A stretch of 64,000 nt of DNA, taken from contig JAADGV010000115.1 of NCBI GenBank assembly GCA_013152205.1, positions 1-64,000 on the forward strand, in the 5' to 3' direction. The DNA comes from Planctomycetota bacterium. GTDB taxonomy: Bacteria > Planctomycetota > Planctomycetia > Pirellulales > Lacipirellulaceae. Below are positions 973 through 63,381 of this stretch, piece after piece. The first letter of the stretch is position 1; the number at the start of each line of letters is the position of its first letter. A program made the translations under genes and the position numbers. The notes beneath the pieces are model-generated. The model was not told the DNA's origin. It ran no database searches and saw nothing but the letters and a program-made list of their open reading frames with translations.

Positions 973-1491
973 TTTTTTGGTTTCCCAGCCTTAGCACTGC
1001 TGCATTAAGTAAAAAACCACAACGACACAACGAAAGTGTAAAAACATGGAACCGTTCATGGAATGAAAAAGGTTGAACTACGAAGGACACGAAGAGCACT
1101 AAGGGGTTGGAGGACAAACCGCTTGTTCATACTTGCACCTTTGGCTTTGTCAGAAGGGCTATCGAATTCTGTAACACTCCACTCGAGTGAAGAAGAATAG
1201 AACACAGATGAACGCTGATTTAGCAGATTGTCGCAGATTAAAGACGATTTTAGGCAACCGTCTGTTTCGATCTTTAGCCCCTAGGACTTCAATAATCTTC
1301 TTTTTTGTATCCGTGAAAATCCGTCTAATCTGTGTTCATCCGCGTTCTATTACTTCAGATGGCTGAAATGTTACCGAATTCTATTCTTCGTACCCTTAGT
1401 GATCTTCGTGGTTTAATCCCGTCCATTCCCGTAAATCCTGTCAAAAAATAGGTCACCTGCTCACAGCCAAACCCTACTGATTTCTTTGTGG
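973..1491. repeat. Intergenic fold-back element between kinase and regulator genes
   Basis: No gene is seen here. The stretch holds a nested imperfect inverted repeat, about 1075-1414. From outside in, the arms pair 1075-1106 (CGAAGGACACGAAGAGCACTA) with 1393-1414; 1161-1180 (GAATTCTGTAAC) with about 1369-1382 (GTTACCGAATTC); and about 1195-1225 (GAATAGAACACAGATGAACG) with about 1326-1351 (TCATCCGCGTTCTATT). An additional module, AACCACAACGACACAACGA at about 1016, recurs near 47676 and in the 56250-56431 fold-back. Confidence 0.8.
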
Positions 1492-3147
1492 CTATACACT
1501 CTCATCCAGAGGAAGCGAAATCGAAAAAATGCTACCCACACCGGGCTGGCTCTCGACCGCAACTTCGCCCCCATGCGCTTCCACCAGATATTTCACAATG
1601 CTCAACCCCAACCCGCAACCTCCTTGCGTTCGCGAAAGCCGCTGATCGACCTGATAGAACCTGCCGAACACTTTTTCTGTTGCAGTTGCTGGCAAGCCGA
1701 TGCCGTTGTCTTGTACTGAAATCAGCACGCGTCCATCTTGGCGCTTGCACGAAAGTACCACCCGCTTGTCCTCGCTCGTATATTTCCAAGCATTGTCCAG
1801 AAGGTTGACGACCGAAGTTACCAGCAAGTCGATATCGCCACGCACAGGAGCCGGTTCGTTGGCCTCAACCACGAGTTCAGCATTGTCGGCGGCATCAAAT
1901 CGCTCCTGCATCGCATCGACTGCCTGTGCGATCACCTCACGAGCGTCGAGGGGTTGCAACTCAAGGTGGCGCTTGCCACGTTCCATACGCGAGAAGGTAA
2001 GAAAATTGTCGATGAGTCGGGTAAGCCGGGCGTTTTCGTGCGAGATGAGTTCCAAGTATTCCCGAGTCCGGCCAGGCGCATCTTCATCCTCATCAAGCAA
2101 GGTGTCGACCAACAGCCGAATGGAACTCAAGGGCGTTTTCAGTTCGTGCGAAACTGTGGCCACCAGATCGTTCTTCAGCCGTGCCACCCGCATCTGTTGC
2201 CACCACGATCGAACAACCAGCCAGGTGAGAAAAAGCGTGGCACCAATCACAGCCAAAGCGGTCCAAGCAAACAGGGCCACGCGCTCGCTGCTATTGCGAT
2301 TTCCTAACTGCTGATCGTTGGCCAGTATTGCCAGTCGCCAACCGGGTAGCGCCGGCGCTAGAGAAACCATTTGCATTGCCTCCGAAGAACCCGAGGCCAT
2401 CGAATCCAAAGTCTCGCCCGGCTCCAATGGCTGCAAGACGATTCCTGTGGGCAATGGTTGGTCAGCCAGAAAATTGCTCACCAGTCGCCGGAGTGTCGAG
2501 GTACGAAAAAGGGCCGTTACCTGCTCCGCGGACGAATGAAGACTCCAAACCCCCTCGACCGGCGTCGGTTGGAGGCCAGCCGTAGGTGGTTTTCCATCCG
2601 ACTTGGCCAAAAACTCCGCCGCCAACAATTCGCCTTCCAATGTGGCGAAATGAAACTTACTGGGCCATTGCTCGATAAGTCTACGCATCAAAAAACGGCG
2701 TTGCGGGGCAGAGAGCCGTTGCGAATCATAGCGATTCAATCGACCTCGCAGCTTGTCCGCAACGTCGATCCACTCCTGCGACTGAGGTTCCAAGAGTTCC
2801 AGTTGCCGCAGCTCCGCATTGGCCGGCAGACTTCGCGGCAGCCGATCAGGATACTGCACTTCGCCGGCAACGCCCCACACGATCGCGCTGTCGGCCAGGC
2901 CTTCGGCGATAAACTTAGCAAACAAAATGCTGGCCGGTTCGCCCACGGCCTTTTCGCTCATCTCCGTCAGCCGCTCTTGCCAACGCTGGTCGACGCGCTG
3001 CTGGGCCGATTCTAACTGCAATTGATAAATGTCGGCCAGCCGTTGCCGCACCGCCAGCCGTTCGTTCTCCATCGCTTGGCGCATCATCCAAAGCACGCCC
3101 CCCGAGGGCACAAGCACCGCCAACAGCAGCAAAAGCACAGACCGCAT
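1492..3147 (-). CDS. Membrane-bound sensor histidine kinase
   Basis: A histidine kinase of about 551 residues. A first membrane segment lies near residues 2-20, followed by a roughly 270-residue extracytoplasmic sensor region of no family I recognise, a second membrane segment near 292-312, then the HisKA dimerisation domain with phospho-His about residue 334 (SHELKTPLSS). The HATPase_c domain follows with N box (NLLDNAWKYT), G1 box (QDNGIGLP) and G2 box (GGCGLGLSIVK). The cognate regulator is almost certainly the gene at 283-972. The ATG at 3147 is chosen; a TTG at 3153 is an alternative. Only about 47 bp separate it from the upstream gene at 3195-4652, suggesting co-transcription. The sensed signal is unknown. 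Confidence 0.93.
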   Translation of the reverse strand: MRSVLLLLLAVLVPSGGVLWMMRQAMENERLAVRQRLADIYQLQLESAQQRVDQRWQERLTEMSEKAVGEPASILFAKFIAEGLADSAIVWGVAGEVQYPDRLPRSLPANAELRQLELLEPQSQEWIDVADKLRGRLNRYDSQRLSAPQRRFLMRRLIEQWPSKFHFATLEGELLAAEFLAKSDGKPPTAGLQPTPVEGVWSLHSSAEQVTALFRTSTLRRLVSNFLADQPLPTGIVLQPLEPGETLDSMASGSSEAMQMVSLAPALPGWRLAILANDQQLGNRNSSERVALFAWTALAVIGATLFLTWLVVRSWWQQMRVARLKNDLVATVSHELKTPLSSIRLLVDTLLDEDEDAPGRTREYLELISHENARLTRLIDNFLTFSRMERGKRHLELQPLDAREVIAQAVDAMQERFDAADNAELVVEANEPAPVRGDIDLLVTSVVNLLDNAWKYTSEDKRVVLSCKRQDGRVLISVQDNGIGLPATATEKVFGRFYQVDQRLSRTQGGCGLGLSIVKYLVEAHGGEVAVESQPGVGSIFSISLPLDESV

Positions 3148-3194
3148 TACCAAAACTCATTGGGCCGAAAGGTCAATGTAAACACAGCAGAGCC

Positions 3195-4652: not shown

Positions 4653-5009
4653 GATGGGTCTCTCCTAAGCGTTAGTGTAATCGAACTGTACTATGGCCAC
4701 GCAGGAAAGAATACCCAACGCATGTTACCGGCGTGTTACGCCCAGGTCTCCCGTTTGTCCTTTTTCAGTGGTAACTCGAACGGTAAAGAAAAGGGGTCCG
4801 CGAATCATGCGAACAGACGCGAAAAGGCTCATTTTTAGTATTTGCAGAAAGCGGTAAACCTGCCTCCCACAACGGCAAATTGCTGACTTTGCAGCTCCCC
4901 TGAACCAGAGCCACCAAGGCTTGTTCGCAGGATATCCCGGCAGTATCATATTTTTTACACTTGAATACCCACTTCAAAGACACTCGCGCGAGCGAAGGAG
5001 CAACCACCT
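4653..5009. other. Divergent intergenic region
   Basis: This 357-bp gap lies between divergently transcribed genes and must hold promoters for both. I see no gene, repeat family member or clear operator in it. AAGGAG-like sequence GGAGCAACCACCT at its right end serves the gene at 5010. Confidence 0.5.
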
Positions 5010-6662: not shown

Positions 6663-7077
6663 AGAGCAACGCATCAATTTTCTTTCACACAAGACACGCC
6701 ACCACGAGCAGCCATCGTTAGCGCTGGCGGCCACGCCACCACGAATGGGGCACGGACGATTTCAAGGTCACTGTTGCAAGGTCACTGTGGGAGGCGTCTC
6801 TGACGCCGATCGTGAGTCAAAACAAGCACTTTCGGCGTCTGCTCTGAATCCGGCTCGCGACAGCGCGCCATCGAATCGACATCAATACCCACTTCTCTTT
6901 GTCTTTACTTTGAGCAGTCGTGGAAGCTAGAACACGGCCTTATCAGCTGTTTTCTCCGGTATACGGGGGTTTGGCACGGAAGATGCCTATAGGTAGTCCG
7001 TTGCCTGACAAAGCTCCCTAAGCTTTGGTCCCGAAAGGCGAGTCCCGTAAATTGATACGATCGTAAGGAGATCAACC
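6663..7077. repeat. Intergenic region with a dispersed repeat module
   Basis: No gene is seen. Positions about 6717-6750 (GTTAGCGCTGGCGGCCACGC followed by a CACGAATGGGG-type end) belong to a short dispersed family found again at 8670-8697, 11816-11850 and 29328-29360. The tandem phrase CAAGGTCACTGT occurs twice at about 6766-6790. GGCGTCTCTGACGCC at about 6793 is a small palindrome. Confidence 0.6.
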
Positions 7078-7350
7078 ATGAAACGCTTCGCACTGATTCT
7101 TACCACGGTTACCGCGTTGTTCGTGTTTGTGACCCCTTCGGCAGACGCGGCCGATAACTCTTACTGGCGCCCCCATCGCAGCTATGCCGTCCATGCGTAC
7201 ACGGTGCCAGTACACAGGCCAGTACACCGAGTCGTTCATCATAACTACGTGGCACCTGTTTACGGCGGCTACGGCTACAATCGCTCTTACGACCACGGCG
7301 GTGGCTTCCGAATTTCGACGCCTCACTTCAGGCTACGAATCGGTCATTGA
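7078..7350 (+). CDS. Small secreted His/Tyr-rich protein
   Basis: A 90-residue protein with a clear signal peptide (MKRFALILTTVTALFVFVTP, cleavage after ADA near residue 25). The mature part is rich in His, Tyr, Val and Gly (VHRPVHRVVHHNYV, YGGYGYNRSY) and carries no domain I recognise; such composition is seen in small envelope or metal-binding proteins of planctomycetes, but that is inference. The ATG follows AAGGAGATCAACC, one of the best ribosome sites in the window, so the gene is real despite its size. It lies 165 bp upstream of another His/Gly-rich exported protein on the same strand. Confidence 0.8.
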   Translation: MKRFALILTTVTALFVFVTPSADAADNSYWRPHRSYAVHAYTVPVHRPVHRVVHHNYVAPVYGGYGYNRSYDHGGGFRISTPHFRLRIGH

Positions 7351-7382
7351 GGCGCCCACTGCAACATTGATCGCGACAATCG

Positions 7383-7415
7383 GCCCGGGCAGCCCCTCAG
7401 AGGGCTAGTCCGGGC
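7383..7415 (+). terminator. Terminator-like hairpin after the small secreted gene
   Basis: GCCCGGGCAGCCC and GGGCTAGTCCGGGC pair around a short loop. The T-run after it is poor, so an intrinsic terminator is only possible. Confidence 0.4.
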
Positions 7416-7514
7416 TTCCTCGCGTGCGAATAATTATACGAGTAGCGACTTCAAGCGATTCAGAGCCAATCCGGTGATGCCCAAAATTTTTACCAAATGA
7501 AAAAAGGTGTGATC

Positions 7515-8651
7515 ATGACTCGCAAACTCATTGTTCGATCGTTTGTTGGAACAGCCTTCCTGTTGGCCGTGACATCGTTTGCTTTCGCGCAACACGGTGG
7601 TGGACATGGCGGCGGTGGCCACGGCGGTGGTGGGCATGGTGGAGGTGGGCATGGTGGAGGTGGGCATGGTGGAGGTGGGCATGGCTTCGGCGGAGGTCAC
7701 GGCGGTGGCGGGCATGGCTTTGGCGGAGGTCATGGCGGCGGTGGACATGGCTACGGTGGCGGGCACGGTTACGGCGGAGGGCACGGCTTCGGCGGTGGGC
7801 ACGGTTTCAGTGGTGGGCATGGCTTCGGTGGTGGGCATGGTTTCGGCGGCCACGGCTTCGGTCACTTTGACGGTCATTTCGGAGGTCACTATGGCCACGG
7901 ATATCCGTTCTTTGCTTTTTCAGTCAATCCCTGGTACGGCGGCTATTCGCCAGCCTACTATTCCGGTTCGTACACCACAGCCTATCGCGCGGTAGAAAGC
8001 TCGCCCGTTCTCGTTGAGCAAACACTGCCCGACGCAACGCCGCAAAAAACATCAGCGGGCGAAGCTTATCAAAAGAAGGCAGAAGAGGCCTTTCGTAAGG
8101 GAGAATTTCAGCAAGCGGCGAGAATGGCCAATCATGCACTGGTCGAAATGCCGCGAAACGGAAAGCTTCTCTTGTTCACCGCCCAAACGCTATTCGCCGT
8201 AGGCGACTACGGCAACGCGGCCGCAGTGATTCACCAAGCCACCTCGCAGCTCGATTCGCAGCAGTGGGGCTACGTGGTAGAAAACTATCAGAAATACTAC
8301 CGTGGACGCGCTTTCGTCGACCAAATGGACAAACTAAACGAGTACCTCAAAAAGAACCCCAACGCCGCTCATGCCCATTTCCTCCGCGGCTACCAGCACG
8401 GATTTCTCGGCCATAAAAGGTCGGCCCTACGAGACCTGAACAAAGCGTTCGAGTTAGAAAGCCGCGACAAACTAGCCGTGCAGTTGATCGAGCGCTTCGG
8501 CGGAACGCCGCCTGCGGCCACTGACCAACCGGTCCTAGAACTGACCCCAGAGACCGCCCCACTCCCCAGTCCAACGGAGCTGGACAACGGCGACGAGCCA
8601 TTGCCCGAGGCCATCAAGAAGAAAGAACACGCGGGCGATCACGACCACTAA
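7515..8651 (+). CDS. Exported protein with Gly/His tandem repeats and TPR region
   Basis: A 378-residue protein from the ATG at 7515, which follows AAAGGTG; an earlier in-frame ATG at 7497 has no ribosome site. Signal peptide residues 1-25 (AFAQ). Residues about 26-125 are low-complexity HGGGHGGGG/HGFGGG/HGYGGG repeats. At DNA level several 15-bp units (GGTGGGCATGGTGGA) are identical in tandem at about 7630-7685, the kind of array that changes length by slippage. A short aromatic linker (NPWYGGYSPAYYSG) leads to a TPR-like helical part, about residues 175-320 (AEEAFRKGEFQQAARMANHA). The C-terminus is acidic and ends HDH. The His content suggests metal binding or a cell-wall role; this is inferred from composition only. 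Confidence 0.85.
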   Translation: MTRKLIVRSFVGTAFLLAVTSFAFAQHGGGHGGGGHGGGGHGGGGHGGGGHGGGGHGFGGGHGGGGHGFGGGHGGGGHGYGGGHGYGGGHGFGGGHGFSGGHGFGGGHGFGGHGFGHFDGHFGGHYGHGYPFFAFSVNPWYGGYSPAYYSGSYTTAYRAVESSPVLVEQTLPDATPQKTSAGEAYQKKAEEAFRKGEFQQAARMANHALVEMPRNGKLLLFTAQTLFAVGDYGNAAAVIHQATSQLDSQQWGYVVENYQKYYRGRAFVDQMDKLNEYLKKNPNAAHAHFLRGYQHGFLGHKRSALRDLNKAFELESRDKLAVQLIERFGGTPPAATDQPVLELTPETAPLPSPTELDNGDEPLPEAIKKKEHAGDHDH

Positions 8652-8749
8652 AAAGTTACCCAAACTGGATTCGTTAGCGGTGTCGGCCACGACATCCTCC
8701 CGTAGTTCCAAATTTGGTGTGCAAACAGCCCAGGCCGTAAGTCCTTACG

Positions 8750-8956
8750 CCGAAGGCGTTTCACATCGTAGCCCAGGGTCGCCGCACAACGGCGCACCCT
8801 GGGTTGCGAGCCTCCCAAATACCTCAACCCTGAAAGGGTTGCACAATCCTCGTGCTATGTAGAACCCTTTCAGGGTTCTCTTGTTCTCAATCCATGGTTA
8901 CCCAGGGTGGCGCGGCTTCGCCGCTTACCCTGGGCTACGATGTGAAACCCCTTCGG
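8750..8956. repeat. 207-bp nested inverted repeat
   Basis: The arms 8750-8779 and 8927-8956 match in 29 of 30 positions as reverse complements (outer CCGAAGG, inner CGTAGCCCAGGGT). Inside, 8826-8840 (AACCCTGAAAGGGTT) and 8863-8877 are perfect 15-bp inverted copies. ACCCTGGGTT near 8797 pairs with ACCCAGGGT near 8900. The CGTAGCCCAGG and AACCCCTT modules recur in the 63249-63322 element. Confidence 0.9.
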
Positions 8957-8964
8957 GGTACTCC

Positions 8965-9210
8965 CGGGTGGCACCCAACGCCGTTAACCCTTTTCGTAAC
9001 TTGTTGCACAACCACGGTTTCTGTAAAGCACTTACTCAACGCTAACTTTAACCTGGTATTCCAGATGGAAACGCTAGCAGCCATCATGGGTTTCCATTAG
9101 TTCTTCCCGATGACGGAGAACAAAAGATCTACATCGGCCCGTTGCCGAGTTGTAAATACGCTGGAAAACAAGCGGTTTGAAAAGGGTTAACGGCGTTGGG
9201 TGCCACCCGC
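8965..9210. mobile_element. MITE-like element with perfect 30-bp terminal inverted repeats
   Basis: Positions 8965-8994 and 9181-9210 are exact reverse complements over 30 bp (CGGGTGGCACCC at the outer end, GTTAACCCTTTT at the inner end). The 186 bp between them encode nothing recognisable but contain a small hairpin TGGAAAC...GTTTCCA at about 9065-9096. Total length 246 bp fits a non-autonomous element. No target duplication is obvious, so a REP/RAYT-type origin is equally possible. Confidence 0.75.
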
Positions 9211-9352
9211 GTGAAAGACCAAGAGTTCATGTCCGTCTGGTTCTTGTTGTTCTACACCAAGATTTGGTTTATCGCGTTCACCAATGTTTCCAACCCACCC
9301 GTAAACGGGAATAATCAATCTTAGTTTCCCCCTCACTTCATACCTAGCTCAA

Positions 9353-10699: not shown

Positions 10700-11893
10700 A
10701 CAACCTCGAAAATGACAAGCATAGGTCCGTCACCCCATTGCATTTCGGCGACACGAAAACCCGCGTAGGTTGCATCAGACCGCCAGTGCGAGGGAATCAT
10801 CGTTCGGCGCAGCGGTGTTTTCCACCGACCGCAGCTCAAGGCAGTGAAATGCGTAGTCATACTTGTGGCGCTGGGTAACGCTTGGCGGTCTGCAGAGAGC
10901 TGCGTTTGTGACCAAGGACGAACCGTCCTTGTGCAGTTGGGAAATTGCCCGAAATGACACATGCGTGACCCTCCTTGGGCAGAAACGATAGTGCCGAAGC
11001 TGCGTAGGATTTATCGACCGAAGCACCTCTGGAACGCGCGTCTGTCCGGTCCGTTTGCTCGGTGAAAGTTGAAGATCCAAAAAATAGTCTTTTCGCGTCT
11101 ATTCGCGTAATTCGCGGGCTCCCTTCTTTGCAGTGCCCTTTCTTTTCCGTGGCTGATGCTTAGTCTCCTTTCACCCGGCTGCGTCTGACGACCGCTACAG
11201 AAAAAATCGAAGTGGCCAAAAATGATGGTGGAATTTAACTTGCCATTCCACGATAATCACCACTGCACTTCGATGCCCCTCGATCTTTGACAATTGAAAG
11301 CCAATGAAGAATCCATTCCCGAAGAAGGGGTCGGATAGGTCACCAGGCGATCCAGGCTGACGCTAAAATGATGGTATCAAACCAGCAATTCAAAAGATTT
11401 CCTCCGCTGTCTCTGCGCCTCAGCGAGACAATCCCTTTTTTGTCTTTCCTTTGCGACTTAGCGCCTTTGCAAGAAATTCCTACCTGTTTGGTTACGGCTT
11501 TGCTGCGCTGTGCCCTTGGTGGTGAGAAATTCAGGCTAGCCACACACCAGAAACTAGAGCAGGAAAAGCCAAAACTCCCCTCGCTCTGTTTTTGTATACC
11601 TGAGCAAACCCCTTGAAACGTAGCCCAAGACGCACCACCCAAATCGAAAGAGCACCGAGTTTTGTCCAGTTCACGGCGTTTTCATGATTTTTGGACAATA
11701 CTAACCGCCACAAACGGGCTCTCGCCCCTGCAATAGCAGAGTCAACGACGGCAGCGGCAAAGAGTTTTGGCAAATTTGCGCGGTCAAAACTTCCCAACAC
11801 CCGAAGCAGTGACCCGTTAGCGGTGGCGGCCACGCCATCACGAATGGGGAACGCCTCAAAGCACAGAAAAAAGTAAAACGCTCCAGCAGAAAG
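10700..11893. other. Long intergenic region with relics and repeats
   Basis: No intact gene is seen in about 1.2 kb. A minus-strand frame at 10684-10962 ends in WRSDATYAGFRVAE, reminiscent of the C-terminus of formylglycine-generating-enzyme-like (SUMF) domains, and could be a decayed fragment. TTTTCGCGTCTATTCGCGTA with AATTCGCGGGC following, at 11087-11120, is a repeat shared with 21301-21330. A hairpin at 11207-11273 has TCGAAGTG/CACTTCGA outer and GTGGAAT/ATTCCAC inner stems. The dispersed GTTAGCG-GGCGGCCACGCC module lies at 11816-11850. Confidence 0.6.
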
Positions 11894-14931: not shown

Positions 14932-15106
14932 CCGATTTCGCCTTATTTGAAACAGCAGGGCAGGGGAGCTGCAAAGTTGCAAGTCTCGTTGTAGCAATAT
15001 CTGGCCAAAAAAATCATCCCAATTTTGTTTGATTTGAAGCGAAGGGGTTTTCATCCTCCGGATTTGCCAGCTTTCCAGCAAACAGCCTTGCCCAAACAAC
15101 GCAGAA

Positions 15107-20648: not shown

Positions 20649-20776
20649 TAGAGCAGTTCCTTCAATTGTGTAGCCACAGAGTTCACAGAGAACACTGAGA
20701 TAAGGTTACTTGCTTCAGTATTTTCTCTGAGACCTCCGGTGTGCTCTGTGGCTATGCTTTTATAGGAAATGCTCTA
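20649..20776 (+). mobile_element. MITE-like element, copy 1
   Basis: A 128-bp unit with imperfect terminal inverted repeats TAGAGCAGTTCC / GGAAATGCTCTA (11 of 12 pair). The inner part contains a second inverted pair, TAGCCACAGAG...CTCTGTGGCTA. A nearly identical copy in opposite orientation lies at 29470-29588, differing by a few substitutions and a roughly 10-bp deletion near one end. It has no coding capacity. Confidence 0.8.
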
Positions 20777-20882: not shown

Positions 20883-21062
20883 GGCAAAGCCGCAACCAAG
20901 CAGGTGAAATTTGACAGGATAGTCAGGATAAACCAGATGAGCGACATTTCGTCTATCACAAGAATCGATTGAAACAACGCTAATTGGCGCTGATCTTCGC
21001 TAATCAGATCAGCGAAGATTAGCGTTCCAACTCAAATTGACAACTGTTGCAATTCCTCTGCG
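20883..21062 (+). repeat. Dispersed ~180-bp repeat, copy A
   Basis: This begins GCAAAGCCGCAACCAAGCAG, continues GTGAAATTTGACAGGAT and ends with CCAACTCAAATTGACAACTG and nearby bases. The partner at 58000-58178 has the same order and orientation, about 80% identical by eye. The second half folds into a hairpin built from GCTAATC/GATTAGC phrases. Confidence 0.85.
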
Positions 21063-21130
21063 CCTTATACGATGAGATTGCCAACTTGGTACCGGGAGAG
21101 TTCAATGAATCTACCTCCTCGAACCAGGAC

Positions 21131-21246
21131 GATTGCAAAGTCGCATAGTTCAAAAAATAGATAAGCCACGGAGAATCCCGTAATTTCAGTACTCGGTGTT
21201 CTCTGTGGCTAGATCCTTATCGGGCCGAATTTATGACTTTGCAATC
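21131..21246. repeat. Fold-back element with GATTGCAAAGTC arms
   Basis: The outer arms GATTGCAAAGTC (21131-21142) and GACTTTGCAATC (21235-21246) are perfect inverted copies. Inner arms AGCCACGGAGAA (21164-21175) and TTCTCTGTGGCT (21199-21210) pair with one mismatch. Single copies of the outer arm occur near 224-238 and 61550-61563. Confidence 0.8.
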
Positions 21247-21814
21247 CTCCGGCTTCCTCGAACTTGCTACAAGTCGAAAGTCGAATATCCTGAAATCAAG
21301 TTTTTCGCGTTTATTCGCGTAATTCGCGGGCGTCGTTCTTTCTTTTCAGTTTGAGTAGTTCCAAATTCGAGCCGTGGCAGACTTGGGGGGGCCGGGTTAG
21401 ATTGCCGAAGTTACCCCGGCCTTTTCGCCAACACGCGACCGGCAACTACCCCCAGGATGTGGCAACTACTAAGGTGGACCCCATTGTGTCTGACAGCTGA
21501 CAGCCAGTAGATTGCAATTTTTTTGAAAATAAGTAAATAATTGTTTATTTAACCGTTGCGGTTTTGGCAATTTAGCTGACAATGGTTGGGAGACGAGTAT
21601 AATTTGGTCGATGCGTGGCTGTGCTGCGCCGACTACTTGATAGAACACTAATCACTGCTCTGGTATAGGCAACTTTTCCGAGACGGGCCGACTGGAGGTT
21701 GAGGTTTGATGCGGAATCTCATGGGACGTTTTATTTTTTTTCGTAAAGGTTATCGCATTATTTCGATAACCGATCTTTTTCATGTACCGTTTTTTTCGCC
21801 GCCGAGGTAATTAC

Positions 21815-26871: not shown

Positions 26872-27218
26872 CATCAAGTAGTTGCAACGGGATCGGGTAG
26901 TTTTAGGTATTCAAGGTGAAAATGCGGGCTCCTTTCTTTTCAGTAGGAGTTAGGTACTCAAAGTGAAAAGAGAATAACCACCGAGTCACGGAGGACACTG
27001 AGAAAACAGCCACAAAGTCCAATTTGAAGTAGAGTATATTTCGACATTTTTTGATTCAAAATACTCGGTGTCCCCCGTGGCTCCGTGGTGAAATTCCTTC
27101 TTGTTTTCAGTTTGAGTTAGGTAGTATTTGGGGTCGTGCAGAAGTTAGTAAAGTACGAGGGGTTGGTGTTTGGTTGAAAAAGTGTTTTACGTTTTGCTTT
27201 AGCATAGAGGTGAAAAAC
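26872..27218. repeat. Intergenic region with CCACGGAG-type fold-back
   Basis: No gene is seen. About 26976-27002 and 27064-27090 are inverted copies with 22 of 27 matches (ACCACCGAGTCACGGAGG / CCCCGTGGCTCCGTGG). The phrase CTTTCTTTTCAGT-GAGTTAGGTA occurs twice in the same direction, at about 26932 and 27101, bracketing the fold-back. A diverged AGTTTGAGTTAGGTAGTATT module at about 27110-27140 is related to the one at 21356-21386. Confidence 0.75.
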
Positions 27219-29297: not shown

Positions 29298-29622
29298 GGC
29301 ACTTTCTAATTTATGCGCCAAGTCGCAATCGTTAGAGATGGTGGCCACGCCACTGCGAGAGCAATTACCTTACGGAACTGCGAGAGCCCAAGTTTGCCAC
29401 GATTCAAATTTGCAACTGCTTAACCTATTTTTACGTCTGCGATTACTCATCAGCGTGTATTTGCACTGATTAGAGAAAAGCATAGCCACAGAGCACACCG
29501 AGGTCTCAGAGGAAATACTGAAGTGAGTAACCTTATCTCAGTGTTCTCTGTGAACTCTGTGGCTACATAATTGAAGGAACTGCTCTAGCGTAGCAATCGC
29601 CGATGGCCAACTCGAACTGCTG
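29298..29622. repeat. Intergenic region with dispersed modules
   Basis: No intact gene is seen. 29328-29360 is the GTTAGAGATGGTGGCCACGCC module. 29387-29418 is the reverse complement of the TTCAAATTTGAATCGTGGCA module found at 63076-63110 and 21356-21386. 29470-29588 is MITE-like copy 2. Confidence 0.75.
29470..29588 (-). mobile_element. MITE-like element, copy 2
   Basis: An inverted, nearly identical copy of 20649-20776. Its left end reads TTAGAG-AAAAGCATAGCC, showing a deletion of about 10 bp relative to copy 1, and its right end GGAACTGCTCTAG is intact. It abuts the transposase relic at 29623-29730. Confidence 0.8.
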
Positions 29623-33818: not shown

Positions 33819-36800
33819 TGCGAGGTGCTGGAAGTCAGTGTATCGTTTGAAGGTGGTCGACGAGAGTCGCTTCCTGGCAGACACCCCAGCATCATGATGA
33901 GGATTTGGCTCACGGCGAACACGATGAGCCAAAATGCCATGCCTGCCCGAAACCCATAGGCATGCAACCCGACACCCATCTGGTTCACTCCGAACCAAGA
34001 CCAGGCGGTGATGACACAGCCAAAGGTGGCAAGCACGGCAATTCCCGTTTGGCGGATCATCCCACCCCAACGGGCATGTAGCACGAGTACGTTCCAGAGC
34101 ACAATCATCAAGGCGCCGTTTTCTTTTGGATCCCACCCCCAAAATCTTCCCCACGAATCGTCTGCCCATAGTCCCCCCAGCACAGTGCCAACAAAGCTGA
34201 AAAACGTGGCAAAGCAGATGGTGCCATAGGCCATTCGAATTAGCTGCTTTTGTTGAAGTTCGTCAAGGCGTTTGGTGAATCGAGTCATCAGCAAGTACGC
34301 TGCTCCCAATGCGCCAGCCAGCAGTGTGGTCGAGTAGCCCAGGGTAATGCAGACCACATGGGTTGCTAGCCAAAACTGCGTGTCGAGCACCGCTTGCAGC
34401 ACGCTAAAAGTATCTCCGTCGCCCGCCAGATTATAAGCAATAAACAGCGTCGGAAATCCAACCACGGCGGCAAGCAAATTGCCGATACCAAAGCGGTAGA
34501 TTCGTTCTGAAACCAAGGCAAACAGCACAGCCCCCCAACCGATGAACACAGCCGACGAATAAAGGTTTGTCACTGGGGGCCGACCGGAAATGTAGATCCG
34601 AGCAACCAGCGCAAAGGTGTGCAGCACAAAGGTGAAGCAGAGTAACCAGTTTGCAGACCGATTGAGAGTCGCCGTCCAACCCAACCATGCCCCAGCCGCC
34701 AAAACAAAGGCGACCAAATAGAGTGCCATGGCCAGCACAAACGGGTTGAAGTGGTTGAAAAAGGCCTCGAATTGCACCCGTGCTAGCCGCAACCGCTCCG
34801 ATTCTTTTCGTTCGCCTAGCTGACCAGCAGCTAGAAGCTCTGCGGCGTGTTCGATGTCCGCAGCAGATCGCTTTTCAACAATTTTTCGATAAGCGATAAG
34901 CTCGCCGTTAAATTTTGGTACGTCGCCCGACCGATAGGCATCGAGCAATGTTCGCATAGCCACAGTCGCTTCGTCGATTTCCATCTTCTGGACACGTTGG
35001 AGGATCAGATGTAGCTCGGCTTCAAGCATCGTTCTCCATTGGCCTGACTCGGCATCGGTCGGCGGAATGGCACGAGGTCCACTTTGGTTGAGCCTCTGAA
35101 TCTGTTGGGCTACGATCTGAAATCCTTCTTTCAACGTCTCCATCGATTTCGTGTCGATCGCAGGCGACATAAACGAGGCTTGCAGGACTTGCATTAGAAT
35201 GATCTTGTCGCCCAATTCCTTGAACTTCTGCTGAACCAAGGTTCGCTCGTCTTGCGGCACTTCACTGGCCAAAATCGCTTGTTCTATGCACAGTTCACGA
35301 TGCTCCAGCACTTCGGCGCGGCTATATCGGAACCCATCTCGACGCGGCAACCCCAGGGCATCTAGCACTTCTAAATTGTCGATGCGAATCATGCGATGCT
35401 TGTTCGACGCGGGGCTACCGGCAATCAGGTCTAAAAGCCAGGTAATCGCTGGCGTCTTTGCCTCGTCGTCGATCTTCCCATGCCCTGAAAGTATGGTGAG
35501 CGTATTTCGAGCCATCGTATCAAAAGGTTTGACTCGACCGTTGTAGGCAATTGGCAAAGCGCCAAACTGATGAACCTGCATCTCTGCGGCAGGCAGTTTG
35601 GGGATTCTCGCTTTTCCTATTACCCACCCGGCAAAGACAAACAAGATGAGCGCCGGTACCCAAACCGAGGGCGAACGCCAGTTAGCCCGCAGTTGACCGA
35701 ACGATAATGACTGGACATAGGTGGTTGGCGCCGTCTGCCGCTGTGCAAATCGGAAAAACACGATGCCAAAATGGGCAAGCATTCCGGTAGCAACCAACAT
35801 GCAGGCGACATACGGAATCATCCAGCCAGCGTTGGTCACAACTTGCAAAATGGTGAGATTCGGATTGTTTGGATCAAAACTAGATTGGTAGATGGTGTCG
35901 CCGCCATAGCGAAGCGGGTTGTTCATCCAAATCTTCACCGGACGATTGACATTATGAGCAGCGTCTACGAGTTGCACTTCCGACGAGAAATTCTTTGGCG
36001 TATTGGTCCCGACGTAGAGATCGTGATGAAACTCGCGTAATGTCAACGAATACGGCTTGTAAACTCTTTTGAATCGAAAGGAAAGTTCGTAGAGTTTGCC
36101 ATCAACTTGAACTATTTCTCGAGAAAGCAGTGGGGAGAATAGATAGGTTCCCAAAGACGTTCCGTCGGAGAGTAACTCTAAGTACACCGAGGGGACATCG
36201 ACCTGTTGTTGCTTTCCTACTCCGGTTCCTGTCCGTTGGGGGATGGCGATATGCAGTGTGCCAGCGCCTTTTGTTGCGGGGCTCTTTTCACCGGGTTGAG
36301 CAAGCCTTGTTCGGGAGTTCTGCAAATAGTCGACCACACGGATTGCGAAAGGTAGAGCATCGTCTTGAACTTTTTTTTTCGACTTCCAGGCATCCACCAG
36401 CAGCGTTCCTGGCACAGTGGTGATGGCATCTTGTTTGTCATCCGATTTATCGACAACCGCCAGTTCCAGCGAACGATTATCTTCGGCATAGTTGACTGTC
36501 TGCCCTTTGACAATCTGCATGTTGGCCTCTTCGGCGGCCAAGCCGGTGAACAATTCGCTAAACATGATTAGCGCAATGCCTCCGTGAAGCAACACAATGC
36601 CAGCGCGACGGCCAAACACAAAGTAGCAGCCTGTTAACAGCACGACGCCAGCCGCTCCGCTTTTGATCAAGTGCCACATGATCCGCAGCCCCGAGGGATC
36701 GAGGCGCACTTCGGGATTCAAGAAAAGCCAGAGAGTAAGCCCCGCTAACAAGGCACAGGTAGTCGCCCCCATCCACCACAACCAAGCCGCCGGAGAGTGA

Positions 36801-47764: not shown

Positions 47765-48748
47765 ATGATTCGCTCTGCTTTTATTACCTCTTTAATTGTT
47801 ATTCTTGCCTTGATGTTTACTGCCAAGAGTGTTGCTGAAGACAAAGCCATCGGCATTATCGGTTTGGATACCTCCCACGCAATCGCCTTCACCAAGGACA
47901 TAAACGGTTCGCCAGAGAAGCCGGGCATCAAGGGCTACCGAGTGGTAGCCGTCTATCCGAAGGGGAGTCCAGATATTGAGTCGAGCCTTAGCCGAGTCCC
48001 TGGCTATACGGTTCAGATGAAAGAGATGGGCATCGAGATTGTACCGACGATCGACGAATTGCTTGAGAAAGTCGACTACGTGCTATTGGAAACCAACGAT
48101 GGTCGCCCCCATCTGGAACAAGTGCTGCCAGTGATTGCCGCTGGGAAACCCGTGTTTGTTGATAAGCCGATCGCAGGTTCGTTGGTTGATGCCGTGGCGA
48201 TTTTCGCAGCGGCAGAGAAGGCCAACGTCCCGCTGTTTTCTTCCAGCAGTTTGCGCTATGGCAAAGATTCGCAGGCCGTCCGCGGCGGATCGATTGGCGA
48301 AGTTCAGCATTGCGAAACCCACAGCCCTTGTAAGATCGAGAAAAATCACCCCGACCTGTTTTGGTACGGAATCCATGGCGTCGAATCGCTTTTCACGGTG
48401 ATGGGCACTGGCTGCGAAACGGTGCAGCGACGTACTGAGGATGGCAAGGTGGTTGTCGAAGGCACTTGGAAGGGCGGACGTACCGGCATCTATCGCGAAG
48501 GCAAAGGCTACGGCGGGTCGGCCAAAGGTGCCAAAGGCGAGGCAACGGTTGGTTCTTACGATGGCTATCGCCCGTTGGTTGTAGAAATTATTAAGTTCTT
48601 TGGCACAGGTAAACCACCGGTGAGTGCTGAAGAGACACTCGAAATTTACACTTTCATGGAAGCTGCCGACGAGAGTAAACGGCAGGGCGGCAAAGCAGTG
48701 AGCATGAGCGAAGTGCTCGAGAAGGCCAAGAAAGAAGCCGCCAAGTGA
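47765..48748 (+). CDS. Gfo/Idh/MocA-family oxidoreductase, secreted variant
   Basis: A 327-residue protein with a Sec-type signal peptide (IVILALMFTAKSVAE). The Rossmann part starts AIGIIGLDTSHAIAF, where the usual GxGxxG is replaced by GIIGLDTSHA, and has VDKPIAGS in place of the common EKP motif. The C-terminal domain contains KNHPDLFWYGIHGVESLFTV. Family members oxidise or reduce sugars and cyclitols with tightly bound NAD(P); the altered nucleotide-binding loop leaves activity uncertain. The ATG at 47765 follows GAGGAA. It lies 111 bp downstream of the dehydrogenase-cytochrome fusion on the same strand and is probably expressed with it. Confidence 0.85.
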   Translation: MIRSAFITSLIVILALMFTAKSVAEDKAIGIIGLDTSHAIAFTKDINGSPEKPGIKGYRVVAVYPKGSPDIESSLSRVPGYTVQMKEMGIEIVPTIDELLEKVDYVLLETNDGRPHLEQVLPVIAAGKPVFVDKPIAGSLVDAVAIFAAAEKANVPLFSSSSLRYGKDSQAVRGGSIGEVQHCETHSPCKIEKNHPDLFWYGIHGVESLFTVMGTGCETVQRRTEDGKVVVEGTWKGGRTGIYREGKGYGGSAKGAKGEATVGSYDGYRPLVVEIIKFFGTGKPPVSAEETLEIYTFMEAADESKRQGGKAVSMSEVLEKAKKEAAK

Positions 48749-48774
48749 ACTGCAAAAATCAACAGGCTTTTTCG

Positions 48775-48832
48775 TAGCTGCGAGCGGAAGCCGCAGCCGA
48801 GTCTGAAAAACCGCAGCTTCCGCCTGCGGCTA
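48775..48832. terminator. Palindrome between convergent genes
   Basis: TAGCTGCGAGCGGAAGCCGC and the reverse complement-like CCGCAGCTTCCGCCTGCGGC pair imperfectly (about 18 of 22) in the 98-bp gap between two convergent genes. It may act as a bidirectional terminator or be a REP-type unit. Confidence 0.5.
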
Positions 48833-48846
48833 GTATGACTTCGACT

Positions 48847-50178: not shown

Positions 50179-50233
50179 AAGAGACTTTCTAAAGCAGACG
50201 TTAGTGTAGGGAAGGCAAACCGCCAAAGTTGCT

Positions 50234-51082: not shown

Positions 51083-51343
51083 GGCTGGCGATCTTCCTTT
51101 TTGCAAGAAAAAAGTAGTGTTGGCCTTGTCTTTTTCTCTTGGGTAGAACCGGTTCAAGATATCACGCTTCGTTTGCATGGTCCACCGAAAGGGGAACGTG
51201 CGGAGGATAAAGTCGGCCTTTGCCCTCGAACGCGAGAAGAGAAATGGTTGTTTTGGCGAGCAGAGGCAGCTAAACTGTGGGCTGGTTCGAGGGTGGTGCC
51301 GCCCTGATCGTTTCTAGTCAGAAAATCTCGAAGGAGTTGTGTT

Positions 51344-52201: not shown

Positions 52202-52253
52202 ACTTCTCTAGGTCGGTGATGCTTCCTACAAGATGAAAAAATGAACAGGTTTG

Positions 52254-53732: not shown

Positions 53733-54195
53733 GTGGAGATCCGAAATGTTTGATGTGGGATTTTTGATTTGGCTAAGCCGCTAGCGGCTGGGGGGACGGG
53801 GGAAAGCCGAAAGCGGTTGTTTTGACTTTGTGATTGGTTGGTTTGTTGACTTTAATGGACAAAACTATGTTGCTTGGCGCTTCTATGACAGTGTTTGGTG
53901 GGTTAATTTTGGCACGAATTGCGGGGGGGCCCCATTGGAGTGGACAAAAGAGAGTTCGGAATGCGGAAATCGGAGTGCGGAATGGGGTAATATTGTCATT
54001 TTTGGTTTGTAGTTGTTGGGCACTAGGCGCTAGTTTGTTGGATTTCGAAAGCTAACTGCTAATCGCTAACTGCTGAGCATTCTCTCAGAAGTGGTGGCAC
54101 AATTTCAACTAAAAAATTGGCTATTTTTTTCAGGACCTGCACAGTGGTCCCTACTTGGATAGTTGTACGTGCCAACCGCCGGTGTTTGTCCGTAC
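53733..54195. repeat. Intergenic region with short-repeat text
   Basis: No gene is seen in about 460 bp. GTTCGGAATGCGGAAATCGG with following AGTGCGGAATGGGG at about 53955-53988 is a direct internal repeat, and GCTAACTGCTAATCGCTAAC at about 54052-54071 is another. Both have the style of the short dispersed modules seen elsewhere in the window. Confidence 0.5.
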
Positions 54196-56214: not shown

Positions 56215-56249
56215 AAACAATCCCTCCTGGTAGTGCAACTTTGAGACAA

Positions 56250-56431
56250 GTTAACCACAACGGCACAACGGCCACGACGTGAATCCAGCATGGAACATTT
56301 TATTTGCCCCCAGTCAATTCAATTGGAAGACATCTCTTACAGAAACAACATTTGTGGCATTCTAGCAGGTTGCGGAACACCTGAAACACGGACTTCTTTC
56401 GTCGTGTTCGTTGTGTCGTCGTGGTTCAACC
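56250..56431. repeat. Fold-back element with ACCACAACGGCACAACG arms
   Basis: Arms 56250-56279 and 56401-56431 are inverted copies with roughly 26 of 31 matches (GTTAACCACAACGGCACAAC and GTTGTGTCGTCGTGGTTCAA). The module also appears singly at about 1016-1033 and 47676-47690. It lies between the DUF1501 and beta-helix genes. Confidence 0.8.
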
Positions 56432-56455
56432 TTGTGTAGTAGTACCAGGGCGATG

Positions 56456-57919: not shown

Positions 57920-58288
57920 TTGAGACTCGTTTGATGGTACGGTTCAGAGGAAATTTTTTAGTTCTGGATTTACCACGGAGACGCGGAGAACACGGGGGCA
58001 GCAAAGCCACAACCAAGCAGGTGAAATTTGACAGGATAACAGGATGAACCAGATGAGAGACATCTCGTCGATCACAAAAATTGATTGAAAGAACACTAAT
58101 CTTCACTAATCAGATTAGCGCCGATTAACGAAGATCAGTGTTCCAACTCAAATTGATAATTGTTGCCATTTCTTTGCGAGAATATTTTGTCTAATTTGGT
58201 TTTGGCGTTGGGTTGCTCTGTGTCTTCGGTTGTTTATGCCAGCAGGGAAATGTCGTAGTTATTCTGGAGTCGTTTTTTTGCTAGGAGA
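57920..58288. repeat. Repeat insertion between PSD1 and DUF1501 genes
   Basis: No gene is seen. TACCACGGAGACGCGGAGAA at about 57971-57990 is a CCACGGAG module. 58000-58178 is copy B of the roughly 180-bp dispersed repeat whose copy A is at 20883-21062, same orientation; it includes GTGAAATTTGACAGGAT and the GCTAATC-type hairpin. Confidence 0.85.
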
Positions 58289-61200: not shown

Positions 61201-61408
61201 CTGGTCCGCTCTCGCCGCCGCGGACCATAAAACGCCGCAACCGAAGATCGAGTTCGCCTTCAAGCTCGGCGTTTGCGCCATGGCAATCCAAGCAGTGAGC
61301 TTTTAGGATCGGACGGATGTGGCGTTCAAACGTCAGGGGCTCGTCGCCACTTGCGCTGGTGGCGAACGGCAGCAACGCCGCTACGAGATAGGGGATGCAA
61401 CGAGGCAC
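58289..61408 (-). CDS. PSCyt1-DUF1549-DUF1553 (PSD1) cytochrome protein
   Basis: A 1039-residue exported protein. Signal peptide about 1-20. The PSCyt1 cytochrome c domain has heme motif CLDCH at 39-43 and MPPGDKK as the distal region. DUF1549 (PSCyt2) spans about 155-380 (TPIDAFILAELQKKGI; RYGERWARHWLDVAGYADTE). A charged coiled region, about 400-520, follows. DUF1553 (PSD1) starts near 575 (LAFARWLFSGTHPLVGRVL) and is interrupted by a roughly 170-residue beta-rich insert (about 800-965) before its end near LAYGRPPTADEYLIALKFL. The start codon is GTG at 61408. It is paired with DUF1501 downstream. The function is unknown but probably envelope redox or polymer turnover. Confidence 0.93.
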   Translation of the reverse strand: MPRCIPYLVAALLPFATSASGDEPLTFERHIRPILKAHCLDCHGANAELEGELDLRLRRFMVRGGESGPAIKPGDSDASYLLERIRSHEMPPGDKKVSSDELATLEKWIAAGAITARDEPEELDSGLAITPEEREFWSFQPLTRPAVPDTPGSDRVRTPIDAFILAELQKKGIGFSPDADDLTLLQRAYFDLTGLPPSPADVAAYLANESPTKYETLLDELLASPRYGERWARHWLDVAGYADTEGYTTADADRPWAYRYRDYVIKAINADKPFDEFLQEQLAGDELVAPPYKNLNEQQIDKLTATGFLRMAGDGTGSGANDDDARNHTISDTVKIVSTSLLGLSVGCAQCHDHRYDPIPHTDYYQLRSIFEPALDWKKWRTPPQRLISLYTDEQRTTANEIEAEVKKVIDEKNVQQKKYIEEELVKELAKYEEALRKNLRTAYDTPGDKRTEEQKQLLKENPSVNISGGTLYQYNKASADALKEFDKKIAEIRAKKPVQKFIRALTETPGQVPVSHLFYRGEYKQPKQTVTPASLTISAPPGKRFEIPDNNEKLPSTGRRLAFARWLFSGTHPLVGRVLANRVWMHHFGRGIVGTPSDFGLLGQKPTHPKLLDWLAVEFAENGWSLKSLHRRIMLSTVYRQSSKSDPAKFAVDGANLLYWKKPVVRLSAEALYDRILATSGVLEHQLYGPPAAITTDDTGQTIVSADSKRRGVYVKVKRTQPVALLKSFDAPVMEVNCESRPSSTVATQSLMLMNSEFILRQAKSFAERISKDAANVELPAVEFDLARFADPTDAWKYGYGRFDAEQQRVISFTPLPHWTGSQWQGGKERSDPTLGWVALNATGGHPGGDSNRAAIRRWTAPFAGKVSIHGHLKHPSESGDGVEARVVSSRLGVVGHWQAQHSEQETSVAEIEVEAGDVLDLHLGCRSNENSDSFHWTVTIDLHTADAPTTTWSTAADFHGPQDQQTPLPKQVVQAWHLAYGRPPTADEYLIALKFLAEQIPILSATRSKAKDINPRQQAMTNLCQVLLSSNEFLYVD

Positions 61409-61673
61409 GGCACTAAGATGGGTTGGAGAGACGGGGGTGGGTTGGAGAGGCGGGAATGAGACATCAACGGCTGTCGAATCGCATGTCCTGCGAGTTTACC
61501 AGAATTTATCTGAAAGAGCAAAATTTGCTTTTCATTGCTCAGGGCGATTGCAAAGTCGCAATTGCACGAAATTTACCGTAACAAATTGAACCACAGAGGA
61601 CGCGGAGCACCTAGCGTGGCGGTAGGCCGCAACCCAAAAAAGTGTGGAAGGTGAAACGAAAGTAACCGTCAGT

Positions 61674-62936
61674 TTAGCTTCGGGCGAACTGCGACTGCTT
61701 GGAAACTTGGTATTCAACAGCCAGATGGGGTGTCTCGATGCGGTTTTGGCCATTGGCTAGCGACTCGACACAAGCTGCCAGAATACCGGACGTTAGCAGC
61801 GTACGCTCGACCGGATAGGGCGCAACGCCGGTTAGAAATGTCTCTTCAACCTTGGACATCAATGCCGCAGAATAGGTGACATTGGGCGTTGAGGGCAAAT
61901 AGAACAATGTAGAAAGAGGTTTCGACTTATCTTTCAATCTGGCGGCGAACGTGAAGTCGCCGACCAAGCCATTCATCAGCATCATCGTAGCCTTAGTGCC
62001 GTCGAGATACTGCACGCGGTAAACAATCGGATCTTTTACCCACTTGCGCATCTGCCCAGCCGTTGGGTAGCGGTGGCTGAAGGTCTCGGGTTGTGCGAGC
62101 GTTTGGCTGCGGCAGAGGCAAGCGTGAAAAAGTTCGGGATCCCAGCCGCCGTTTTGCCAATTGTCGGTGTCCATTGCTTTCCAAACCGATTCGCCGCGTA
62201 GAGCTTCTACGGAAGCGACTCCGGTTTCGCCGCCCCGTCGGCGTTCGGCCATGCACTGGATTGCTTCCAGCGCATGAAAATCGTAGCTGTCGACCCCGCC
62301 CATCGCGACGCACATCAACTCCTCGACTTCTGCGCCAAAAGGCATCTCGATAGCCGGCATTCGCCAGGTGACTGGCAACGACGAGCCTGCCAGATAGGGA
62401 ATCTTCATCTCGCGGGCCGTATCGGCCATCTCTTTGGCCCATTCCCATTTCCACGAGAGGTGTTTGTCGTTAAACATCGGAACCACACGGCCATCCTGCT
62501 TAAAGACGTCGACAATCTGCTTGAAAAACTCGTAACGCGGGTACTGCGTTTGCCCAAGGTCGTTGACGTGATAATCACCATGCTCGCCGATGACAAGCAC
62601 GGCATCGACAGCCAGCTTGTTGCCGCCACAGCGAAGAGTTTCGGCTATCGTCGGATAAATAGGAAAACCAAACTCACGCGAACGGCTAACGCTTAAATCG
62701 TTCTCGGGTTTTTGATCGACGTAAGCCGCAACGACATCAAATGGCGGTTGGTGCCACTTGCCCTGCGAGGGATAGCCGACAAGAAACCTTTCGCCCATGT
62801 GCCAAGCATGTGAATGATATCGCCACTCGGTGGTAATAATCGCCATGCGACGCCGTTGGTTAGTCTGCGCCCAACCTAGAGACGACGAAGTCAAACCACC
62901 GCCAATGGCACCAAGAAACAATCGTCTTGAGATCAT
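61674..62936 (-). CDS. Tat-exported protein of unknown function
   Basis: A 420-residue protein with a Tat-type signal (MISRRLFLGAIGGG). The mature part contains RRRMAIITTEWRYHSHAWHM, FPIYPTIAETLRCGG, DAVLVIGEHGDYHVNDLGQT and RYEFFKQIVDVF. The pattern is a Rossmann-like alpha/beta protein conserved in planctomycetes, but I know no biochemical function. The ATG at 62936 follows GGAGAGAAG. It lies upstream of the PSD1 gene on the same strand with a 265-bp gap that contains a partial repeat module, so co-transcription is uncertain. Confidence 0.8.
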   Translation of the reverse strand: MISRRLFLGAIGGGLTSSSLGWAQTNQRRRMAIITTEWRYHSHAWHMGERFLVGYPSQGKWHQPPFDVVAAYVDQKPENDLSVSRSREFGFPIYPTIAETLRCGGNKLAVDAVLVIGEHGDYHVNDLGQTQYPRYEFFKQIVDVFKQDGRVVPMFNDKHLSWKWEWAKEMADTAREMKIPYLAGSSLPVTWRMPAIEMPFGAEVEELMCVAMGGVDSYDFHALEAIQCMAERRRGGETGVASVEALRGESVWKAMDTDNWQNGGWDPELFHACLCRSQTLAQPETFSHRYPTAGQMRKWVKDPIVYRVQYLDGTKATMMLMNGLVGDFTFAARLKDKSKPLSTLFYLPSTPNVTYSAALMSKVEETFLTGVAPYPVERTLLTSGILAACVESLANGQNRIETPHLAVEYQVSKQSQFARS

Positions 62937-63381
62937 TTTACTTCTCTCCGGGGGCAACTTACTAAAATGGGGATGCCAGACAGCTTAGCGCGGCCTTTGG
63001 CTGCAAACAAAAAAAGGGAACCGCTAATCAGCGCTAATACACGCTAATGGGTAATAACAGGCGAAAAAAAGGTTCAGTAGTTTCAAATTTGAATCGTGGC
63101 AAACTTGGGAGGTTTGAAATTAGTGCTTATCAGCGCTGATTAGCGGTTCCCTTCTTCCTAAAAAAGTGTGTCAAGAAAACAAGCTTTTATGGGTTTGTTT
63201 CCAGACAGCATAAGGCGACCGAACAGCCCGGTGCAAATGTTTTTTTGCCGAAGGGGTTCTGTATCGTAGTCCAGAGTGGCTCAGTATTGCTGCTTGCCCT
63301 GGGCTACGAAGTGTAACCCCTTTGGGGTATAGTCTTTGGGTTAGGGATCTCTGTTTGGCCACATATGGAACTACTGAAATT
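62937..63381. repeat. Intergenic region with two fold-back elements
   Basis: No gene is seen. 63014-63035 and 63132-63153 are perfect 22-bp inverted copies (AAGGGAACCGCTAATCAGCG plus CT), enclosing the AGTTTCAAATTTGAATCGTG module at 63076-63110. A second inverted repeat, about 63249-63322, pairs AAGGGGTT...CGTAGTCCAG with CTGGGCTACG...AACCCCTT, related to the 8750-8956 element. Confidence 0.85.

Follow-up and report, generated by a model that had tools for sequence, protein, structure and literature searches.

Which enzyme, if any, do the short mirrored words between the genes of a planctomycete belong to? This question is raised by the first 64 kb (64,000 nucleotides, hereafter the window) of contig JAADGV010000115.1 (C80) in the draft genome of a Planctomycetota bacterium of the Lacipirellulaceae (4.6 Mb, 130 contigs). 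A sequence-only reading of the window had listed eight short modules, usually arranged as inverted pairs and only between genes, and had taken them for one shared vocabulary assembled in varied combinations that no named element explains. In this study, we believe that the words of the window are best read as the ends of GxxExxY elements, which are selfish units, gene-bearing or arms-only and often nested; taken as one joint statement, we regard this as rather likely.

An inverted-pair scan of the window (partners no more than 500 nt apart, local alignment score >=26) returned 14 pairs, and 14/14 were non-coding, the non-coding share of the window being 19% in our gene list. The numbers of pairs in ten dinucleotide shuffles were 2, 0, 4, 2, 3, 0, 1, 0, 1, and 1, and a stricter scan (score >=34, seed 9) found 5 pairs in the window versus zero in all ten shuffles. 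The start of the open reading frame (ORF) at 27051 was shifted to 27118; had the listed TTG start been kept, an arm of the 26977/27064 pair would fall in coding sequence. Genome-wide, the tandem CCACRGAGN(1-3)CACRGAG had 61+62 copies and its reversed control 0+0, and CCACAGAG had 160+155 copies versus 46+42 for its control. These results confirm that the listed modules are present, that mirrored pairs are enriched over chance, and that they are sited between genes. The claim that no named element explains the modules also held, since literature and Rfam searches gave none covering them (Rfam covariance-model matches above the gathering score in the window: 0). With subscription journals and preprints mostly beyond the search, nothing was found on tandem words and almost nothing on GxxExxY, and the literature matches to CCACAGAG text were mostly primers, among the matches listed.

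The idea of a single vocabulary was not upheld, and repeats of several unrelated kinds stand together in the list: GC-rich hairpins of Y1 transposase genes, modules without an owner, and the tri-repeat arms described below, which make up most of the list. Inverted pairs are indeed the rule for most words, but GGCCACGCC and AAATTTGAATCGTGG had 22 and 2 exact copies, respectively, in 864 kb of the genome without any inverted pair, so not every listed module is mirrored.

The owner of the words was sought in twenty CCACAGAG pairs chosen from two relatives, where the words proved to mark the outer boundaries of units that differ inside. A decaying GxxExxY gene was present in two of these units, and an open one at a third G002 locus (L174). 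The ORFs inside four arms-only units of relatives had no Pfam match. Small ORFs without a Pfam match in CCACAGAG units of G001 and G002 (L164, L165, L171, and L172) are possible cargo or decayed genes. When 43 genomes of the bacterial family were searched for PF13366, 39 were found to have it, with 9 genes in the genome studied here; none of the nine was found within the window. TIGR04256 (GxxExxY) was matched by 4/4 proteins tested from this genome (E 1e-37 to 1e-45). All nine genes are bracketed by inverted arms (scores 34-48), and window sites match the arms of eight of them (score >=32), compared with 0 in one shuffled window; one of the matches, at 35874-35894, falls within coding DNA and could be a chance hit. 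Five of the eight listed modules match these arms, namely the CCACGGAG, GCTAAT, TTCGCG, AGGAT, and ACAACG types, whereas the other three have no assigned owner. GCTAAT-worded GxxExxY genes occur in relatives (L411, L420, and L429).

The same association was found outside this genome. The arm score at a gene was any inverted match within 300 nt, and the best match was sometimes not the tri-repeat itself (at L198 another repeat outscored arms visible by eye, and the best matches at L222 and L347 were likewise of another kind). Scores of 29 or more were obtained at 67/71 loci of the bacterial family and at 35/39 in a second set (40 loci, 1 too short), 102/110 together. In reference bacterial and archaeal genomes, at least 564 loci were confirmed by tblastn, and the best 80 were taken; 1 was too short, and 66/79 scored >=29 and 72/79 scored >=25. 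Because they were chosen as best-scoring, these 80 loci lean toward the query. They come from Bacteroidota, Verrucomicrobia, Lentisphaerae, Acidobacteria, Cyanobacteria, Chloroflexi, several proteobacterial classes, Desulfobacteria, Geobacter, Armatimonadetes, SAR324, KSB1, Nitrospiria, and others. The controls run with the same code scored >=29 in 1/145 and 1/54 shifted windows and at 1/30 ParE toxin genes. Both GxxExxY genes found in viral contigs carry arms (scores 47 and 33). We are highly confident that the GxxExxY gene and its arms belong together.

An arm is built from two or three short units at a spacing of 8-10 nt, and the right arm mirrors the left. Similarity within arms peaks at lags 8, 9, and 10 (0.42, 0.37, and 0.35, respectively) and is about 0.24-0.29 at other lags; the consensus by eye is CRCnRAK-like. 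The words at GxxExxY loci include CCACAGAG/CACGGAG, CCGCCAAG/CGCCAAG, CCACGAAG, CACGACG, CGCAAAG, CGCGGAT, GCGAAT, GCTAAT, and CAGGAT. Protein identity and word similarity were compared at 111 of 151 loci, after loci with a score <29, arms >160 nt away, or stop codons had been dropped; the Pearson coefficient was 0.50, and the maximum of 2000 permutations was 0.149. The word was shared by 38% of protein pairs at 60-80% identity and by none below 40%. Among 102 within-genome pairs, which are not independent, rho was 0.28. The number of CCACRGAG tandems per genome followed the PF13366 count with a rho of 0.67 (43 genomes, kinship ignored), and the values for Y1 count, IVP count, and genome size in the same genomes were 0.40, 0.36, and 0.03, respectively. 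For three words, the arm medians of genomes with and without the gene of that word were 51 v 11, 73 v 7, and 57 v 3 (p = 0.0015, 0.0012, and 0.0004, respectively; 34 genomes, gene inventories incomplete).

In the GxxExxY protein, the residues G, G, E, Y, D64, E74, K76, Q88, and Y92 are invariant in 24 sequences, and the alignment identifies them as a putative PD-(D/E)XK site plus QxxxY. The QxxxY motif is typical of RecB/Cas4 nucleases. The fold alignment comprised 32 sequences, 8 of the 40 chosen having been omitted (L334 for a stop codon and seven unexamined). The AF2 model had a pLDDT (predicted local distance difference test) of 95.3. Foldseek with this model gave nothing at E <=0.001; its top names were SSO0001, which we take to be a Cas4, AddAB, LHK-Exo, and lambda exonuclease (E 0.02-0.08), and no PDB relative was found by sequence at E <=1. 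One tool paper mentions a GxxExxY match at a place that another program called cas4 (PMC8934634). A defence role was considered and rejected, PADLOC giving one weak match (E 1e-4) among 5 proteins.

We propose the following explanation. A complete element is about 0.4-0.6 kb long, with a left arm, one GxxExxY gene, and a right arm; some three similar copies of a 7-nt unit (often CRCnRAK), spaced 8-10 nt apart or roughly one DNA turn, form each arm, and the right arm is the reverse complement of the left. GxxExxY would be a single-domain PD-(D/E)XK nuclease of the Cas4/RecB/lambda-exonuclease kind that may, as a multimer, bind the word it owns in either arm and cut at the arm edges; host repair would then copy the unit into a spacer and leave no visible target duplication. 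Gene-less copies would retain both arms and stay movable in trans, which would give arms-only elements; different word families would have different proteins. Elements inside elements would then produce the combinatorial layout. The varied combinations reported earlier are seen, but instead of an assembly from one set they look like elements inside other elements. Whether the nuclease reads and cuts the arms is, in our opinion, evenly balanced, and DNA binding, cutting, movement in trans, and the route of movement are what we infer.

The pyrH-frr spacer was surveyed in 30 genomes, 29 of which were parsed; the L382 spacer (4 nt) looks misparsed. The spacers contained 3 GxxExxY elements, 4 arms-only CCACRGAG pairs (that of the present genome included), two 7-nt-type pairs, and five pairs with other tri-repeat words: one CGGAT, one of ACGACG type lying in a CCACGGAG remnant, and three CGCAAAG in outward order. 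At least four genomes had 38-64 bp without a pair, and the remainder had solo arms, other hairpins, or unclear text. Presence and absence at one orthologous site, the mark of a mobile element, was found here between species only; because the spacer differs among species, elements come and go between species. A CCACAGAG element that is intact elsewhere is interrupted on C23 by a GCTAAT unit; another mover is possible because the edges of this unit reach beyond the GCTAAT arms. We think that the elements are probably mobile. At L377, L378, and L383 (pyrH-frr, one genus), outward CGCAAAG arms with a short spacer look like a circle junction or two adjoining elements.

Several observations weigh against our explanation. 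No act of transposition was observed, and a target duplication (direct repeat of 5-9 nt, offsets 0-8) was present in 0/20 elements of two relatives. GxxExxY genes were co-oriented with the upstream neighbour in 31/31 clear calls in the family and 45/52 in other genomes, compared with 9/15 for ParE. This sense-strand bias is not predicted from DNA transposition alone and may reflect the survival of copies transcribed by read-through. Arms scored <29 at 13/79 loci elsewhere and at 8/110 in the family, L219 had no arms, and the structural match is weak (best E 0.022). The word-protein correlation would be equally expected from linked inheritance of gene and arms. G004 has 123 CGCCAAG tandems, yet its sole GxxExxY gene has a different word, and G024 has 20 CGCCAAG and 13 CACGACG tandems with zero PF13366 matches; our guess is that these tandems may be orphans of a lost gene.

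The alternative that survives best is a cis-acting RNA, in which the arms would form a stem in the operon transcript (a processing site, attenuator, or stabiliser) and GxxExxY would be a resident regulator or RNA-processing enzyme. The elements sit inside operons, on the same strand as the gene upstream, arms remain where the gene has gone, and the related-looking 23S rRNA intervening sequence (IVS) is excised as RNA by RNase III, according to PMC4990558. However, G-U-compatible mismatches were not favoured in the arms: 155 were of this kind and 189 of the mirror kind at 168 loci, most differences being purine for purine, as would fit arms that are read as DNA, and the numbers at 23 IVP loci were 16 and 32, respectively. 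The lack of a G-U-compatible excess speaks for duplex DNA and against a selected sense-RNA stem. Hundreds of same-word copies per genome and differing words at one orthologous spacer would hardly be expected of a conserved regulator, and the fold resembles DNA nucleases. We consider a cis-acting RNA unlikely.

According to REPIN/RAYT or TIRtron logic, the Y1 (HUH) transposases of the genome would move all modules, which we regard as improbable. All six Y1 genes of this genome have an adjoining hairpin repeat (6/6), two fold-backs of the window match the L011 family (Table 1), one (~48747-48833) resembles the repeat upstream of L012, and inverted arms >=29 were found at 35/62 Y1 loci tested. 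However, most repeats beside Y1 genes are GC-rich hairpins whose words differ, a CCACRGAG-type tandem occurred at 1/75 Y1 loci and 1.4 kb from the gene, CGCCAGG arms at L092 surround a Y1 element complete with terminal repeats of its own, and the CCACRGAG count follows the Y1 count less closely than the PF13366 count. Y1/RAYT transposases as owners of all modules were therefore dropped for the tri-repeat words, for which the 75 loci already contradict them, and retained for the GC-rich hairpins. The latter are of the REPtron/TIRtron type already described in PMC3733652 and PMC6006769. The L092 locus is at G009:C1:938014-941931, where the enclosing CGCCAGG pair is of the tri-repeat kind. At L093 and L094, GGGAGGCGTCT repeats are terminal inverted repeats (TIRs) around Y1 genes, and similar text occurs at 6784-6850 of the window.

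That the arms are ends of miniature inverted-repeat transposable elements (MITEs) of a DDE transposon (e.g., a TA-target family) with GxxExxY as a passenger is very improbable: the commonest family of this genome (20649-20776) does end TAGAGCA...TGCTCTA, resembling a TA target, but the 20 elements examined had no target duplication, the arms go with GxxExxY in many phyla, and the pairs read showed no DDE gene within them, the genomes not having been searched for DDE families.

With the words of the window read as ends of GxxExxY elements, its sites can be arranged as in Table 1.

Table 1. Arms, mirrored pairs, and other fold-backs in the window, followed by the sites of each word type
Feature	Position	Strand	Basis and remarks
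Unpaired arm, ACAACG word (as own GxxExxY gene C89:79521)	1015..1034	+	arm match score 35
Mirrored pair, ACGAAG word (own GxxExxY C13:82281)	1088-1105 / 1393-1410	.	inverted pair score 31; arm match 1385-1413 score 38
Mirrored pair, ACAGAT/CGCGGAT word (own GxxExxY C60:58327)	1189-1238 / 1309-1356	.	arm matches 61 and 63; inverted pair; 1189..1356 nested within ACGAAG pair 1088..1410
Unpaired arm, GCGAAT (TTCGCG) word (own GxxExxY C30:14410)	4798..4823	+	arm match 42
Fold-back of other type, hairpin family adjoining own Y1 transposase gene L011 (C65:33159)	8746..8960	.	family match
Unpaired arm, GCGAAT word	11092..11119	-	arm match 51
Arm, CGCTAAGGCGCAAAG word (own GxxExxY C5:28264)	11449..11468	-	arm match 35; high-copy region 11399-11503
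Arms-only element, CCACAGAG word, ends TAGAGCA	20649..20776	.	inverted pair; family shared with 29483-29587 (reverse orientation) and with copies on C1, C23
AGGAT-type repeat, then GCTAAT mirrored pair 20976-20996 / 21006-21026	20910..21026	.	inverted pair; second copy of the AGGAT + GCTAAT block at 58001-58178
GATTGCAAAGTC mirrored pair enclosing CCACGGAG/CTCTGTGG pair 21165-21214	21121..21256	.	inverted pairs; GATTGCAAAGTC type without assigned owner
Unpaired arm, GCGAAT word	21304..21331	-	arm match 46
Arms-only element, CCACGGAG word (own GxxExxY C23:6694), arms 26977-27002 / 27064-27089	26977..27089	.	inverted pair and arm match
Arms-only element, CCACAGAG word	29483..29587	.	family match to 20649-20776
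Arms-only element, ACAACG/ACGACG word, arms 56246-56279 / 56400-56435	56246..56435	.	inverted pair; arm match 54
CCACGGAG arm 57972-57993, then AGGAT arm 58026-58045, then GCTAAT block	57972..58178	.	arm matches
Left half of composite, GATTGCAAAGTC + CCACAGAG arm 61590-61607	61546..61607	+	full composites on C27, C21
GCTAAT mirrored pair	63011-63048 / 63119-63156	.	inverted pair; weaker match (33) to GCGAAT/GCTAAT arm of C30:14410
Second copy of Y1-associated hairpin family (as 8902-8960)	63271..63329	.	family match
CCACAGAG-type sites	20649-20776, 21165-21214, 26977-27089, 29483-29565, 57972, 61590		
TTCGCG-type sites	4798, 11092, 21304		
GCTAAT-type sites	20976-21026, 63011-63156		
ACAACG-type sites	1015, 56253-56426		
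AGGAT-type sites	near 20910 and 58026		
GATTGCAAAGTC sites	21121-21256, 61546		
GGCCACGCC-type sites	6716, 8672, 11815, 29330		

The modules without an owner are the GATTGCAAAGTC pairs, the GGCCACGCC hairpins, and AAATTTGAATCGTGG. The GATTGCAAAGTC pairs, 7 of which are inward in 864 kb, enclose CCACAGAG pairs and GGGAGGCGTCT pairs. As an outer end of GxxExxY elements GATTGCAAAGTC was rejected, being absent at eight loci of this genome (L019 left out) and at 110 scanned loci. Pairs of CAGGACGATTGCAAAGTC ... GACTTTGCAATCGTCCTG (window 21121-21256; C8, C21, C27, and C96 of the same genome) enclose other mirrored elements, with as many as three levels of nesting. At 62981-63240 of the window and at C23:72828-73128, the GCTAAT pair is part of a 215-260 bp unit whose two hairpin ends differ; a CCAGACAGC direct repeat flanking the unit at ~62981-63240 on both sides was discarded as a single occurrence, to which the nested C23 copy gives no support. 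Other repeats of the window are a perfect 31-bp inverted repeat (CGGGTGGCACCCAACGCC...) at 8965-9209 with arms 183 nt apart, and 15-18 bp tandem repeats at 7595-7849 in a Gly/His-rich stretch of ORF 7497-8651. The GGGTGCCACTG family is enriched in this genome.

Mirrored arms also flank the IVP/S23p genes (PF05635) of the same genomes, and their period is strictly 7 nt (0.72 at lag 7 and 0.75 at lag 14); arms >=29 were found at 22/27 loci versus 0/53 shifted windows. PMC4990558 reports that the Coxiella 23S rRNA IVS encodes S23p, that three tandem heptamers precede the ORF, and that its origin is unclear. We regard the IVP/S23p arms as a sister design to the GxxExxY arms and propose here a possible link to the 23S rRNA IVS. 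At 53952-54095 of the window there are tandem 7-nt-type repeats (GGAATGC..., GCTAACTGCTAATCGCTAAC...) resembling IVP/S23p arms, and the IVP gene C1:44277 of this genome adjoins text similar to them.

In a wider form, the GxxExxY elements may be a domain-wide class of nuclease-only mobile element, with a Cas4/RecB-like enzyme, one word per DNA turn, lineage-specific words, and transposase-free movement between genes that includes gene-less copies, and with S23p/IVP elements, the 23S rRNA IVS among them, as a sister class using a 7-nt code; we see this as a proposition that could fall either way. It would join two unexplained things, the repetitive intergenic text of many phyla and an orphan multi-copy protein family, into one testable unit, and its natural protein-word pairs might allow a DNA-recognition code to be worked out. 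If it is true, much unexplained CCACAGAG- and CGCAAAG-type bacterial text would be the remains of such elements, and if the S23p parallel holds, the question of how the 23S rRNA intervening sequences arose could be approached as well.

Several known systems resemble the GxxExxY elements. MITEs and insertion sequences share terminal inverted repeats, non-autonomous copies, and nesting with them, but the units read here contained no classical transposase, and the 20 tested had no target duplication. Cas4/RecB-like nucleases share the invariant D, ExK, and QxxxY and, with a weak score, a similar predicted fold; in contrast, GxxExxY has about 120 aa in one domain and no invariant iron-sulphur cysteines in the alignment. 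The 23S rRNA IVS is likewise a small unit with inverted ends and a single small ORF, with heptamers in Coxiella (PMC4990558), and free-standing S23p/IVP genes have mirrored 7-nt arms. However, an S23p/IVP ORF within the inverted ends defines the IVS, and GxxExxY elements hold another protein of another fold, have another repeat period, and at the sites seen lie between genes. The REPIN-RAYT/REPtron systems and TIRtrons are alike in their many short mirrored intergenic repeats, in an enzyme gene of their own with the same repeat on its flanks, and in several families with specific pairs side by side. Their repeats flank a Y1_Tnp gene, whereas the tri-repeat words did not do so at 75 Y1 loci, except for one distant tandem and L092. 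Their enzyme is an HUH/Tyr transposase, whereas GxxExxY elements have a PD-(D/E)XK nuclease-like protein, and their repeats, according to PMC3733652 and PMC6006769, are a GTAG-tagged hairpin or a GGGGWSAS-type TIR, whereas the GxxExxY arms have three spaced direct repeats.

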